The position numbers were made by a program, and so were the translations under genes. Of a stretch of 47,377 bases of DNA, positions 18,178-34,551 are shown one piece after another; position 1 is the first letter of the stretch; each line of letters starts with the position of its first letter. Source of the DNA: a virus; the IMG/VR virus record IMGVR_UViG_3300049846_000788, positions 1 through 47,377 of that record, one strand, 5' to 3'. The notes under the pieces are model-generated. The model did no database searches, was not told the origin of the DNA, and saw only the letters and a program-made list of their open reading frames with translations.

Positions 18178-18220
18178 CAAAAAAGTAATATAGGATTTTT
18201 TTGCCGGGAAATTTTTCCCA
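18178..18220 (-). repeat. GGGAAAAATTTCCCGGC intergenic element, copy 2
   Basis: The minus strand reads GGGAAAAATTTCCCGGCAAA, then an AT-rich stretch and TATATTACTTTTTT just before the gp59 start. It is the second copy of the element at 1468-1509, with the same orientation relative to the downstream gene. Confidence 0.6.
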
Positions 18221-26740: not shown

Positions 26741-27748
26741 CTATGCCAAAGGAACCATGCTATACCCGGGACCAATATTTGGAACCATCATTTTCATATG
26801 TGGATCCCACCTCATATTCTTTTCTTGTCCACTGCCACCAGTTCCAGTTTGTCTCTTAGGTTGTCCTAGATTTTGTTTTGGGTCAGTGTCAGACACTTGA
26901 GCAATCTGCCCATAATCAATTGTCTGAACCCCTGGGGTAGTACCAGATTCTCCCGGAGGAACAGCACCACTTCCAGGAAAATTCTCTCCATACATTTGCT
27001 GCACGTATTCATCAGATGCTTCTAACATTTCCTTTATTTTCTCTTGCTTTTCCTCTGGAGTTAAATCACCACTACCTGTTCTAATAAATGATGTTGCCTC
27101 TGGACTATCAAGAGGAACAAAAACATTCATCGGTGTTCGTCTTTGGAATCTAATATCAGAAATTCTCCAATTTCCATACCCCGTAGTCTGTCCTTCAGAT
27201 CCAGAAGATATCCAAGCTATAGCTACACTTGGAATTCGATATTGATCAGGGATAGTAATTGTATATGTACCAGCAGATGATGGTATAGAATAAAAGGTTC
27301 CTTGATTAGATCCTACTGTAAAAAATCCAATTACTAATGATCCTGTTCCAGGACTTAAATCAAATACAACCGTATCATAATAGCTAGTATCATATATTAA
27401 ACCACCAGCAGCAGCAAAAGTGTCTGGATCATTTGAGTTAGGTCCAAAAGTTACATCATATTCATAAGTAGAAAGAGTTGTTTCTCCAGTAGCAGGTAAT
27501 GTAGTTGAAAATACATCACCTGTAGTCATGCCCTCAGAGATTTCTTCTCTCCAATTTGAATATAAAGGACTATTTTTGTACGTAAGTTCCTCTAAAAACT
27601 TTTTATTTTTTTCTTTTTGAATTTTTTTCTCTACAAGTTTTTGATGATGCTTTTGCTTAACATCATCCATATCAATATGTCTAAGAGCTCTCGAATATAC
27701 ATTCATAGGTAGTAGAGATATGAGTAATACATATAACAAATACTTCAT
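26741..27748 (-). CDS. secreted or exported protein of unknown function
   Basis: A 335-aa protein with a signal-peptide-like start MKYLLYVLLISLLPMNVYSR (cleavage perhaps near residue 19). A charged helix follows (QKHHQKLVEKKIQKEKNKKF). Residues 85-215 are beta-rich and Ser/Gly-rich (YDTVVFDLSPGTGSLVIGFF, GTYTITIPDQYRIPSVAIAW). The C-terminus is Pro/Gly-rich and disordered. It resembles a small extracellular beta-sandwich. A late promoter (27764-27774) precedes it, so it may be a virion or lysis-stage protein. No family is recognised. Confidence 0.65.
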   Translation of the reverse strand: MKYLLYVLLISLLPMNVYSRALRHIDMDDVKQKHHQKLVEKKIQKEKNKKFLEELTYKNSPLYSNWREEISEGMTTGDVFSTTLPATGETTLSTYEYDVTFGPNSNDPDTFAAAGGLIYDTSYYDTVVFDLSPGTGSLVIGFFTVGSNQGTFYSIPSSAGTYTITIPDQYRIPSVAIAWISSGSEGQTTGYGNWRISDIRFQRRTPMNVFVPLDSPEATSFIRTGSGDLTPEEKQEKIKEMLEASDEYVQQMYGENFPGSGAVPPGESGTTPGVQTIDYGQIAQVSDTDPKQNLGQPKRQTGTGGSGQEKNMRWDPHMKMMVPNIGPGYSMVPLA

Positions 27749-28113: not shown

Positions 28114-28370
28114 AAAATATCAGTTCATTCACAGCAATTAGATTAATTATTCTTGGATGGTCTGCTACTTTATTAACCCTCAACTACATGGATTACTTAA
28201 AAAAAATGGATGCTACTTTCATAGCATCCGTATTTACTTCTGCTTTAGCAACCTTTGGTGTTGATGCCGCAAATAAGAAATCAAAGACCAGCCTTGATAA
28301 ATCTGTAGATTGTGATACCTGCAGATCCAAGAGTAGCGAAGACAGCACCCAAACTACTAAAGAACTTTGA
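28110..28370 (+). CDS. small membrane protein, holin-like topology
   Basis: An 86-aa protein with two hydrophobic helices (about 8-30 and 34-53, FTAIRLIILGWSATLLTLNY and TFIASVFTSALATFGVD) and a hydrophilic, Cys- and Ser-rich tail. Size, topology and closeness to the lysis enzymes fit a holin, but no sequence motif proves it. Its last 90 nt overlap the 3' end of the convergent gene at 28281. Confidence 0.6.
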   Translation: MKNISSFTAIRLIILGWSATLLTLNYMDYLKKMDATFIASVFTSALATFGVDAANKKSKTSLDKSVDCDTCRSKSSEDSTQTTKEL

Positions 28371-29060
28371 TACTTGTTCTTCTAGAGATTCTTTTTCTAC
28401 GTGAAATAAATCTTTATTATCATAAATCCATTTCCACATAGGTATTCTCATATCTTTAGGAACTAGGGGATCAATCCAAGAACTTACTTCATTATTCCTA
28501 TCATCAACTAAAATTCCATTTCTATTATAAGTTCTAACTCTTTGAATGTTATACTCACCAGTATAATCTACTTTCTTATCAGCAATCTCATCAGTAACCC
28601 AAAAATCTACATCTGCCTGAACTCTCTCCCAGTGCGTTCTCATAAAGGTAATATCTAACTCAACATCACCATTCTCTGGTTTGTATGGATGAGAAACACC
28701 ATTAACGCAGACTTGTAGTTTGCCTGGATGTAGTTTATTTTTTGTAGGAAACTCGTGGCATATTATTGGTTTTTGAATAAACCAAGATGTTTTAGTCAAG
28801 ACAAGATAAGGAATGGCAATAGATAAAGTTATTGGTACTCCAAAAGCAAGTATTCTTTTTCTATGATTATTGATAAGTGATTGGGCAGCTTCACCAAGAT
28901 CTTTTGTTTTAGCAGCATGGATAACTAAAAGATTACGAAATGCTTGTAGTCTTTTACGAAATCCTAGGTCATAATCCGACTCTTCAGCAACAAGTATCAT
29001 CTTATCCAGCTTCTGTAACAAGATCACATGATCTGTGTTGTTACACTGCTCGGCGGGCAT
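28281..29060 (-). CDS. membrane-anchored protein of unknown function, 259 aa
   Basis: A 259-aa protein. The hydrophilic helical N-terminus (about 1-66) is followed by one transmembrane helix (RILAFGVPITLSIAIPYLVL, about 69-88), a predicted external domain of 130 residues (ELDITFMRTHWERVQADVDF) and a C-terminal amphipathic helix. The topology recalls T4 holin T (one TM and a large periplasmic domain), and it sits beside the lysis enzymes, but sequence likeness is not evident. A late promoter precedes it. Confidence 0.6.
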   Translation of the reverse strand: MPAEQCNNTDHVILLQKLDKMILVAEESDYDLGFRKRLQAFRNLLVIHAAKTKDLGEAAQSLINNHRKRILAFGVPITLSIAIPYLVLTKTSWFIQKPIICHEFPTKNKLHPGKLQVCVNGVSHPYKPENGDVELDITFMRTHWERVQADVDFWVTDEIADKKVDYTGEYNIQRVRTYNRNGILVDDRNNEVSSWIDPLVPKDMRIPMWKWIYDNKDLFHVEKESLEEQVSKFFSSLGAVFATLGSAGITIYRFIKAGL

Positions 29061-29104: not shown

Positions 29105-29581
29105 TTATGAAGACCAAAGTTTACCTTCAGCACCTCTTCTTCTTAACAATCCAACCTCAACATTACTACCAGGATTACGATATAACTTTAAGGTTTCTGG
29201 GATTGCTTTCCAATTTTTTTGTTTAAGATTAGTTGTAATAGTGTTGAAGCCCCTACTACCGTAGAAGTTAGCACCGAGATTATAAGCAAAAGATAATAAT
29301 GCTCCACGTTGATTATCATTCATTTCATCCCAATAAGGTATCTTTTGAAGTGCTGGTAAAAACTTAGATTCAATATCAAAGATTAATAAATCATTTGCCT
29401 CTTCTTGAGTGATTGTTTCTTTCAGGTGAAAAGGTTGCCCATTTCTTTTACGGGTGGATCCCCAACCAATAGTAATTGGAAGTCCACCAGTTAGAGGATC
29501 AGGATAAGCAGTCAAGTGACAACCTTCAAACTGTTTGATTAGATCGACACCACACTGAGGAACCTGTGATGTCGTTTCTAC
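29105..29581 (-). CDS. GH24 (T4-type) lysozyme domain, read only after a -1 frameshift
   Basis: The open frame from G29581 encodes 22 linker residues (VETTSQVPQCGVDLIKQFEG, then CH) and a 136-residue GH24 muramidase. FEGCHLTAYPDPLTGG holds the catalytic Glu and, nine residues on, the Asp; PITIGWGST and NQRGALLSFAYNLGANFYGS follow the family. Between the upstream in-frame TGA and 29515 there is no ATG, GTG or TTG. The first start, TTG at 29515, would omit the catalytic Glu. The frame joins the C39-type gene exactly at its slippery A AAA AAG, so the product is probably a fusion of about 391 aa. Confidence 0.8.
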   Translation of the reverse strand, partial: VETTSQVPQCGVDLIKQFEGCHLTAYPDPLTGGLPITIGWGSTRKRNGQPFHLKETITQEEANDLLIFDIESKFLPALQKIPYWDEMNDNQRGALLSFAYNLGANFYGSRGFNTITTNLKQKNWKAIPETLKLYRNPGSNVEVGLLRRRGAEGKLWSS

Positions 29582-29587
29582 TTTTTT
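29545..29587 (-). promoter_or_regulatory. programmed -1 ribosomal frameshift signal
   Basis: Slippery heptamer A AAA AAG at 29587-29581 in zero frame (GTA AAA AAG), then the UAG stop and a 6-nt gap (TAGAAA). The stem CGACATCACA / TGTGGTGTCG follows (29574-29565 with 29554-29545; ten pairs, one of them G-U) around a 10-nt loop. Spacing and heptamer fit bacterial -1 frameshifting (dnaX-type). A G-rich stretch GGATGGGG lies 15 nt upstream. Confidence 0.8.
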
Positions 29588-30279
29588 ACATCAAAGATTC
29601 TACCCCATCCAGTTTTATCCTTACCTCTCTCCAACCAACGATAAGTAAGATCAGACTTTTTGTACACTGCACCTCTACCGTTAGTTACTGCTCCAGTGTA
29701 TCCATCATTCAGTGAACCATAAGGATCATTTACAACATAGTCTTCACCTTTCTTACCAATTACAACTACCATGTGTCCGCCTGTGGGACGAGATAAAGTC
29801 CCCCTATGAAGAATGCCAATAACAACAGGTCTTCCAGCGGCAAGCTCACGATCAAGATCAGCAAAAGAAAGATTGTAACTGAAGTGGGATTTAATACCGT
29901 AAGATTCCAGAACTTTTGTCTGAACTGTGTGGTCTGTTGAATCACCGATTGAAAATACTTTTTGAACATAGGCATCATCGCCCTTTGCTCCTTTGAGTGT
30001 GCCTGGTTTAAAATACTCTAAGCACATAGCACAAGAAGATGAATTACAGGTTCGATTTGCATCTCTGTAATTATCTGTCTGCGGATAGTATGGAACGTTA
30101 AGAACTCCAGGAACAACTGGATCTAATTTGGTTCTATAAATTTTTACCCAGTTTGCTGAGTCCTCAAGTAGATCTTCGCACTTACCTGCCAAATCAACCT
30201 CAAGTTGTTCTACTGCTGCCACATGCTTGGGGTTTTTTTCGTCGTAGTGCTTAAAGAAATTGTGAAGATCTACTCTCAT
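29578..30279 (-). CDS. C39-type papain-fold peptidase, N-terminal half of a frameshift-fused lysin
   Basis: A 233-aa protein of the Peptidase_C39-like type. VLNVPYYPQTDNY precedes the candidate nucleophile C78 in TCNSSSCAMCLEYF. GRPVVIGILHRG follows, then GGHMVVVIG with H169 and YVVNDPYGS with N184/D185. The enzyme would cut peptide bonds in the wall. It ends RIFDVKK-stop at a slippery site and continues into the lysozyme by -1 frameshift. A late promoter lies at 30301-30310, and AGGA precedes the ATG. Confidence 0.75.
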   Translation of the reverse strand: MRVDLHNFFKHYDEKNPKHVAAVEQLEVDLAGKCEDLLEDSANWVKIYRTKLDPVVPGVLNVPYYPQTDNYRDANRTCNSSSCAMCLEYFKPGTLKGAKGDDAYVQKVFSIGDSTDHTVQTKVLESYGIKSHFSYNLSFADLDRELAAGRPVVIGILHRGTLSRPTGGHMVVVIGKKGEDYVVNDPYGSLNDGYTGAVTNGRGAVYKKSDLTYRWLERGKDKTGWGRIFDVKK

Positions 30280-33084: not shown

Positions 33085-34551
33085 TCAGAACTTGAAGGTT
33101 GTCTGAATTACACCACCCCAGTTGGAGGAGTTACCAGCAAGACGTTGGTTATCACTACCGTAGATGATAGCAGGAGTGATGCTGATGTTATCAGACACTT
33201 GGTACTTGTAGAAGACTTCAAGAAGAGTGGACTTCTCAAGGTTCTCACCAGTAGGTGCCTGACCGATAGCAACACCAGCAGAGTTACCCTTAGCAAATAC
33301 ATCTGCCCACTGAAGACCAGCGAACCAGGATTGACTATTGGTAGCAGCACTTTGAGTACCACTTACAGTATTCCAACCATAACCTGCTGAGATCGAAGGA
33401 GCCCAACCAGATTGCGAAGGTTGCCAGTAAGCGTTCAGTGCATAACCATTAGAGGTTTGACCAGGAACCAGAGCACCAGAAGCACCATTCAGACCGTTAT
33501 AGGTGCGAACACGAGTGCCTTCAGTACCATAACGATAACCGAATGCAGCACCCCAGTTAGTACCACGATAACCGATTTGTGCCAGAGTATTCAGAGCACC
33601 AGATCGATCAAACTCACCACGGGTGCTATCTTGTCCTGCTTGGGCAACATAGTTGATACCAGCAACAAGACCCTTCTTACCATACTGGATACCGAAACCA
33701 GAACCAACTGCCTTGTTATAAACACCAGGAGCACCTGCTACTTGGAAGAAGTCAAGGATCTTGGACTCATATGCAGAAGGAACCCATGCGATTTCAGTAT
33801 TACGAACAAGAGCACCAGCAGTAATAGTAGTGGTGTTATTGAAAGCAGGGAATGAATAATACAGACGATCGATAACTACGTTGTTACCAACTTCACTGGT
33901 AGTGCTATCTGCCTTATCCAGTTTAAAAATTGAAGAACTGGAACCGAAAGGATCAGCACTGAAGTTGGAAGAACGCAGACGAGTGCGGAGAAGGTCATTA
34001 CCAGTGAACGAAGTGTCCAGGTTCAGACGCAGATCGTAGTTGAATGCAGTGTGAGTTACATCACCACTTTTGGTTTGGTAGTCATCAACACCACCAAGAA
34101 CAAAGTTTGCTTCACCACGCAGTTTGGTAGTAGTGGAGAACTGGGTTGCTTCAAGTTCACCAACCTGTGCTTCCAGTTTGTCTACACGACCACGGAGCAC
34201 AGCAAGTTCTTGTGCAAACTCTGCTTGAAGACGCTTGAGTTCATCAGTAACTTCAGTCACACGATCCAGGCAAGCATTCAGAAGTGCTGCTGCCTCATAA
34301 CGAGTCAAAGCACGACCACCAGCAAAGGTGCCATTAGGATAACCAGCAACACAACCATATCGTTCTACGAGGTTGCTGAGTGCCTGATATGCCCAATCGG
34401 TTGGACGGACATCAGAGAATTGAGTGACGCTTGTAACCTGTTCTGCGGAATTGTATTGGTTGACCCCATTCATATTAAGGTCTGCGGCAATCGCAGCAGG
34501 AGCAACCATTCCCAGAGCAACAGGTGCAAGCATCAGTTGATTGAGTTTCAT
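33085..34551 (-). CDS. cyanobacterial-type outer membrane porin with SLH domain
   Basis: A 488-aa protein. The signal peptide (about 1-22, ending APAAIA-AD) is followed by an S-layer-homology domain (FSDVRPTDWAYQALSNLVER, GYPNGTFAGGRALTRYEAAA, about 45-95) and a coiled-coil (ELKRLQAEFAQELAVLRGRV). A beta-barrel of OprB/Som type then runs to the C-terminal Phe (WGGVIQTTFKF). This is the architecture of the major Synechococcus porins. It follows its own promoter and precedes pstS, so it may assist nutrient, perhaps phosphate, uptake. It is a clear host-derived gene. Confidence 0.93.
   Translation of the reverse strand: MKLNQLMLAPVALGMVAPAAIAADLNMNGVNQYNSAEQVTSVTQFSDVRPTDWAYQALSNLVERYGCVAGYPNGTFAGGRALTRYEAAALLNACLDRVTEVTDELKRLQAEFAQELAVLRGRVDKLEAQVGELEATQFSTTTKLRGEANFVLGGVDDYQTKSGDVTHTAFNYDLRLNLDTSFTGNDLLRTRLRSSNFSADPFGSSSSIFKLDKADSTTSEVGNNVVIDRLYYSFPAFNNTTTITAGALVRNTEIAWVPSAYESKILDFFQVAGAPGVYNKAVGSGFGIQYGKKGLVAGINYVAQAGQDSTRGEFDRSGALNTLAQIGYRGTNWGAAFGYRYGTEGTRVRTYNGLNGASGALVPGQTSNGYALNAYWQPSQSGWAPSISAGYGWNTVSGTQSAATNSQSWFAGLQWADVFAKGNSAGVAIGQAPTGENLEKSTLLEVFYKYQVSDNISITPAIIYGSDNQRLAGNSSNWGGVIQTTFKF

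Follow-up and report, generated by a model that had tools for sequence, protein, structure and literature searches.

A predicted programmed -1 ribosomal frameshift joins a C39-like peptidase to a GH24 lysozyme in cyanomyovirus endolysins

We propose that a cyanomyovirus gene encodes a two-domain endolysin expressed via a programmed -1 ribosomal frameshift, a reading to which we assign a probability of roughly 0.92 on the strength of comparative sequence analysis. The same proposal, that such a shift joins a C39 peptidase to a GH24 lysozyme, had been made from this one sequence (hereafter the sequence-only reading). It is supported here by a slippery heptamer, by the position of that heptamer at the end of the peptidase frame, by the -1 relation of the lysozyme frame, and by the conservation of a covarying hairpin.

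Results

The gene lies on a cyanomyovirus fragment of 47,377 bases (IMG/VR record IMGVR_UViG_3300049846_000788), which was analysed whole, is called the window below, and is assigned to its source on the basis of psbA, pstS and baseplate genes. On the minus strand, a C39-like peptidase ORF (Peptidase_C39_2; 29578..30279), whose zero-frame product has 233 aa and 26.1 kDa, ends with GTA AAA AAG TAG, the TAG stop occupying 29580-29578. The terminal codons AAA AAG form part of an A AAA AAG heptamer (29581..29587, minus strand), on which the predicted -1 re-pairing would be with AAA AAA. Because of an upstream TGA in the -1 frame (29591..29593, minus strand), the shift window spans just 10 nt and ends with the heptamer. 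From the GTA at 29581 the -1 frame reads GTA GAA ACG and continues to 29105, encoding a GH24 lysozyme by Pfam and PHROG profiles (29105..29581, minus strand; 158 aa after the slip). The predicted frameshift fusion (29105..30279, minus strand) is 391 aa long, or ~43.8 kDa, and in-frame fused homologues of it exist. The first ATG, GTG or TTG in the lysozyme frame is a TTG at 29515, which lies downstream of the Glu codon of an F-E-G motif (29525..29527, minus strand); from comparison with the GH24 lysozyme family we take this Glu to be the catalytic residue. A 10-bp stem begins 6 nt past the heptamer, and both its arms are on the minus strand. The 5' arm, CGACATCACA (29565..29574), falls in a variable linker, and the 3' arm, TGTGGTGTCG (29545..29554), falls in the codons of a conserved C-G-V-D-LIK motif, with a loop of 10 nt between them (29555-29564, minus strand). 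The sequence-only reading had described the peptidase terminus, the lack of a lysozyme start ahead of the catalytic Glu, the stem with its loop and spacing, and products of 233 and 391 (233 + 158) residues, and in all of this the sequence and a frame scan agree with it, coordinate by coordinate.

Both domains can be recognized from profiles, folds and active-site residues. The 233-aa ORF matches Peptidase_C39_2 (Pfam PF13529, E 7.8e-15), and its C78, H169 and D185 are invariant in 30 C39 homologues. An AlphaFold model of moderate confidence (mean pLDDT 70) has a papain-like fold, with the C39-like peptidase 3erv as its best match (Z 12.3, rmsd 3.2, 153 aligned) and a further resemblance to the pseudomurein endoisopeptidase PeiR (Z 10.6); profile, fold and Cys/His/Asp set together place the domain among the C39-like peptidases. 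The lysozyme frame matches Phage_lysozyme (Pfam PF00959, E 1.2e-21), and the Glu/Asp/Thr catalytic set of GH24 phage lysozymes of the T4/P22 type can be read directly from its sequence, as the E in FEG, a D nine residues on and the T in ITIGWG. Its structural neighbours are endolysins of the P22/AbLys1 type, among them lysozymes from P22 and from Acinetobacter phage. A single profile of 405 positions, PHROG 3617, takes in both ORFs, and the AlphaFold model of a natural fusion (L245) is of moderate confidence as well (pLDDT 78). The predicted fusion would thus combine a probable peptide-bond cutter with a muramidase.

Cyanobacteria also encode C39 homologues that are 57-62% identical to the phage domain (L388:2548-3567, from Arthrospira PCC 9108, and also L389-L391), and Arthrospira has five matches; a homologue of this kind is possibly the source of the phage domain, or possibly a host autolysin. 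Just downstream of the lysin, the minus strand of the window encodes two ORFs with no Pfam or PHROG match, of 259 aa (28281-29060) and 335 aa (26741-27748), and the former, with a hydrophobic stretch near residue 70, is a candidate lysis partner. At 33085-34551, on the same strand, lies an OprB-family porin with an SLH domain that resembles a cyanobacterial outer-membrane porin.

Taken by itself, the window hairpin is moderately unusual for one sequence (-14.1 kcal/mol, z -3.06), and of 3000 minus-strand positions drawn at random, 71 (2.4%) have a helix of at least 10 bp in the same geometry. An in-frame A AAA AAG occurs only at this junction among the 8569 codons, with 56 Lys-Lys pairs, of the 24 window ORFs. 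Such single-sequence statistics are suggestive, and the significance of the junction comes from its conservation. Elsewhere in the window, at 18179 on the plus strand, a second AAAAAAG has a 10-bp helix close by.

Five IMG/VR protein scans, together with phage records, yielded 387 relatives, which comprise 190 different sequences in the region of the C39 terminus. At 142 distinct loci the end of the C39 frame is overlapped in -1 by the lysozyme ORF, and 119 of these carry a slippery heptamer (A AAA AAG in 118, A AAA AAA in 1) that ends 0 or 3 nt before the C39 stop; 103 of these 119 share the 10-nt shift window. Where no ATG lies across the C39 stop, A AAA AAG is found in 109 of 113 loci, and where an ATG does, in 9 of 29. 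C39 loci without a downstream lysozyme have A AAA AAG in 0 of 19 cases, and the comparison of 109/113 with 0/19 gives a Fisher p of 2e-19, which is indicative only, as the sequences are related. The codon preceding AAA AAG is GCA, GTA, ACA, ATA or GAA; the encoded residue varies and the third base is always A, a constancy that is in part built into the definition of the class. Upstream codons vary (GGTAGAATC, GGTCGTATT, GGAAGAATT), with no fixed Shine-Dalgarno-like motif evident by eye. A quick tree of the C39 domain, which has many weak forks, places loci of the frameshift type throughout the clade, intermingled with those of other arrangements.

The two arms of the hairpin covary. The linker that holds the 5' arm varies in length, with 10-26 residues between slip and LIK, and the 3' arm falls in the G-[VI]-x-LIK codons, where the lysozyme fold begins. 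Nearly all loci are covered by three pairing registers, whose arm sequences are unrelated to one another (GCCAAC../..GTTGGC; TCAACACCAC/GTGGTGTTGA; AGTTCTACTCC/GGAGTAGAACT). Within each register 91-93% of cells are paired, as against 13-52% when one side is slid, and independent pair counts gave 98.3% against 30-48% slid in a 21-sequence alignment (3 pairs, 4 cells double-changed) and 93.3% against 33-52% slid in a 10-sequence alignment (3 pairs, 8 cells double-changed). Third codon positions stand opposite each other in all three registers, so both arms can change together while the protein is unchanged. The codon-shuffle p for individual loci is modest (median 0.02) because the linker codons are partly self-complementary. 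The best helix score has a median of 9.5 in slippery loci versus 5.5 in heptamer-less overlaps, and a few slippery loci (L089, L146) have weak stems. With an ATG over the stop, the stem has 5-6 bp in 10 of 10 loci; among the others it has 8-14 bp in 102 of 108. The hairpin is retained in loci that need it and decays where an ATG spans the stop. An alignment of homologous loci had been put forward by the sequence-only reading as a check, and across more than 100 distinct loci it finds A6 to be the rule and the stem retained with compensatory changes.

Natural variants of the junction alter the slippery sequence or the polarity of the shift. The S-PM2 isolate genome has the standard A6 frameshift form. 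The C39 frame of three S-CAM7 isolate genomes ends with GTT TTT TTT CCA CAG TAG and is followed by the lysozyme in -1, which places U UUU UUU where others have A AAA AAG, with a hairpin of -16.7 kcal/mol after the T run. The junction of one contig, L342, reads CTC CCA AAG TAG, a C CCA AAG slippery site with a GC-rich hairpin. Both substitutions leave the geometry of the junction intact. Of 45 ACG-2014f records with a match of at least 95% to the gene, several were inspected; they encode an in-frame fusion of 405 aa whose junction, GCA AAA AAG TCT GAG, retains the heptamer; a -1 slip there leads to one codon and then TGA, and a GGAGGG/CCCTCC hairpin lies downstream. The single contig L268 has the same inverted polarity. 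Many other in-frame fused homologues are without the heptamer, S-CREM1 and likewise PHROG 10051 have the reverse domain order (lysozyme-C39), and DSL-LC02/03 encode lysozyme and C39 as separate genes.

A further arrangement is seen in L025, L034, L042, L230 and similar loci, in which the frameshift is replaced by an ATGA stop-start overlap (junction TTCAAATGA). The lysozyme of the ATGA-overlap relatives carries an N-terminal extension of ~50 residues (MTIKFIDAVENHKDLEHQNRAWAFLQ...). Overlaps of the ATGA type without a heptamer comprise 20 ATG loci and 1 GTG locus, and another 10 loci carry the heptamer and an overlapping ATG together.

The S-PM2 'putative lysin' annotation (L082:3954-4172) starts inside the lysozyme domain and is without the catalytic Glu, and the S-CAM7 lysin annotations (L392:2499-2717, L401:1599-1817, L402:1545-1817) have the same internal start, with the catalytic Glu lost. 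These annotations are short because the lysozyme frame has no usable upstream start codon. Going by the comparison of loci, the S-PM2 and S-CAM7 lysins would need re-annotation as predicted frameshift products.

Discussion

The junction has the parts of a -1 frameshift cassette: an X XXY YYZ heptamer in the zero frame before a -1 overlap, a structure with covariation (a 10-bp stem after a 6-nt spacer) within the ~5-8 nt range downstream, and conservation beyond coding need, with loss where the site is unneeded. Stimulatory structures usually begin 5-8 nt downstream of the slippery site (PMC4066793), and A_AAA_AAG is highly shift-prone in E. coli, a property tied to a single tRNA-Lys (PMC5009743). 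A rough pattern test on cyanobacterial species other than the known hosts detected a tRNA-Lys(UUU)-like pattern in 141 of 145 genomes and a canonical CUU version in 1 of 145. In the mechanism we propose, a fraction of ribosomes would read the C39 peptidase and terminate at TAG, yielding a 26-kDa peptidase. Other ribosomes would pause at the downstream hairpin with AAA AAG in their P and A sites, where both tRNA-Lys could slip one base back (tandem slippage) into the GH24 frame, and these slipped ribosomes would yield a 44-kDa peptidase-muramidase.

The fusion could also be made in frame at the level of the transcript, if RNA polymerase slipped on the A tract and some mRNAs gained an A. Runs of A can slip, and T. 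thermophilus dnaX uses transcript slippage; A7 versions of the junction read through in frame, and S-CAM7 carries a T8 run. However, A6 is short, given that selection against slippage generally sets in at about nine A or T (PMC1088944), and the C CCA AAG of L342 contains no homopolymer longer than three. Nor would polymerase slippage require the run of A to be followed by a G in the -1 reading phase, or an RNA hairpin with covariation to lie 5-8 nt downstream; we consider it very unlikely as the source of the fusion. A7, which the sequence-only reading had set against a ribosomal shift, is confined to two lineages, where it gives a plain continuous fusion ORF with the stem still in place, and the reading does not fall on this account.

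Slightly less likely again is separate translation of the lysozyme, either by reinitiation beyond the C39 stop codon or at a non-standard start. The sister set with real ATGA overlaps and the 10 loci in which heptamer and overlapping ATG coexist lend this some credence. Nevertheless, the window and dozens of other slippery loci (56 distinct in all) have no ATG, GTG or TTG before the catalytic Glu, and heptamer and stem are specifically retained in loci with no ATG over the stop, the stem decaying in those that have one. An independent lysozyme start is real in the sister class and is rejected for the slippery class. The sequence-only reading had counted homologues with a normal lysozyme start against a frameshift; they do exist, yet mostly in loci that lack the heptamer. 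Least credible of all is a frame error or pseudogene, in which an A7 like that of the two relatives with a continuous ORF lost one A through sequencing or assembly. Such an artefact is ruled out by the A6 tract of the S-PM2 isolate and of over 100 distinct contigs, in which the lysozyme is still conserved at 63-95% identity.

Returning to the programmed ribosomal frameshift, we infer shifting in the host, the rate of that shifting, and a demand for both products, the last of these mainly because the in-frame fusion of ACG-2014f keeps the site, and a slip there makes a short product. This suggests that the free C39 form may be useful in itself, much as other lysin genes supply an additional copy of one domain through an internal start. 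Somewhat beyond an even chance, in our judgment, the frameshift is a selected ratio-setter, with free C39 and C39-muramidase both kept despite changes of polarity (ACG-2014f, L268) or of slippery sequence (S-CAM7, L342), and would represent a widespread, undescribed endolysin strategy of cyanomyoviruses. Against this, the A7 lineages read straight through and many fused homologues are without the heptamer, which means that the short product is dispensable in some lineages. Loci with separate genes, an overlapping ATG or reversed domain order show that phages can also manage without the frameshift. Frameshift, inverted frameshift, overlapping start, in-frame fusion, reversed order and separate genes form a rare evolutionary series, and this natural series of alternatives lets one ask why recoding persists. 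A frameshift would explain the short-fragment annotation of the S-PM2 and S-CAM7 lysins, would place endolysins, as a class, among the broadly conserved -1 frameshift genes of environmental phages, and would make the lysis of Synechococcus by cyanomyoviruses hinge on a translational ratio.

Among known systems, E. coli dnaX (tau/gamma) shares A AAA AAG and a downstream stem-loop, and likewise makes two proteins from a single start. The dnaX polarity itself, with a stop and a short product directly after the shift, recurs in ACG-2014f and L268, and in ACG-2014f it would give the same two products as the standard form. Unlike in dnaX, the shift in the window would give the long product, the gene product is a lysin, and no fixed upstream Shine-Dalgarno-like element was seen by eye at the window or its relatives. 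The tail-assembly chaperone of dsDNA phages (lambda G/GT type) and mobile elements of the IS3/IS911 type also use a -1 shift to give some of their protein molecules a further domain, and IS elements do so with A AAA AAG and stem-loops, but gene, function and position differ, and the domain added here is a catalytic muramidase. Other lysin genes are known to give a full-length protein and an extra copy of one domain, as with CTP1L, LysIME-EF1 and Lys170 (PMC9430671, PMC4777826, PMC7098653). Those genes, mainly from phages of Gram-positive hosts, use in-frame internal starts and yield an extra C-terminal binding domain, whereas the window gene would use a frameshift to yield an extra N-terminal catalytic domain. 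Fused lysins of the PHROG 3617 and S-CREM1 type have the same two domains as the window, but in frame or in reversed order (S-CREM1, PHROG 10051), and need no frameshift.

The sequence-only reading had held that no lysin described in cyanophages works in this way, and for cyanophages this stands, in that we found no frameshifted cyanophage lysin in the openly readable literature. Extended to lysins in general, it would have to be qualified. The PRFect paper counts lysins among frameshifted genes, citing a Lactococcus phage (Shearman 1994; PMC10885494), and for Alteromonas virus vB_AspP-H4/4 a slippery site after the endolysin gene was proposed to give a fusion to a virion protein (PMC5658483). 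The Lactococcus case, as cited there, concerns two overlapping genes and the Alteromonas case is a proposal, neither being a conserved cyanophage C39-GH24 cassette. The cassette belongs to a known kind of -1 frameshift, while the predicted addition of a muramidase to a peptidase endolysin by this means, conserved across cyanomyoviruses, is, as far as we have searched, new.
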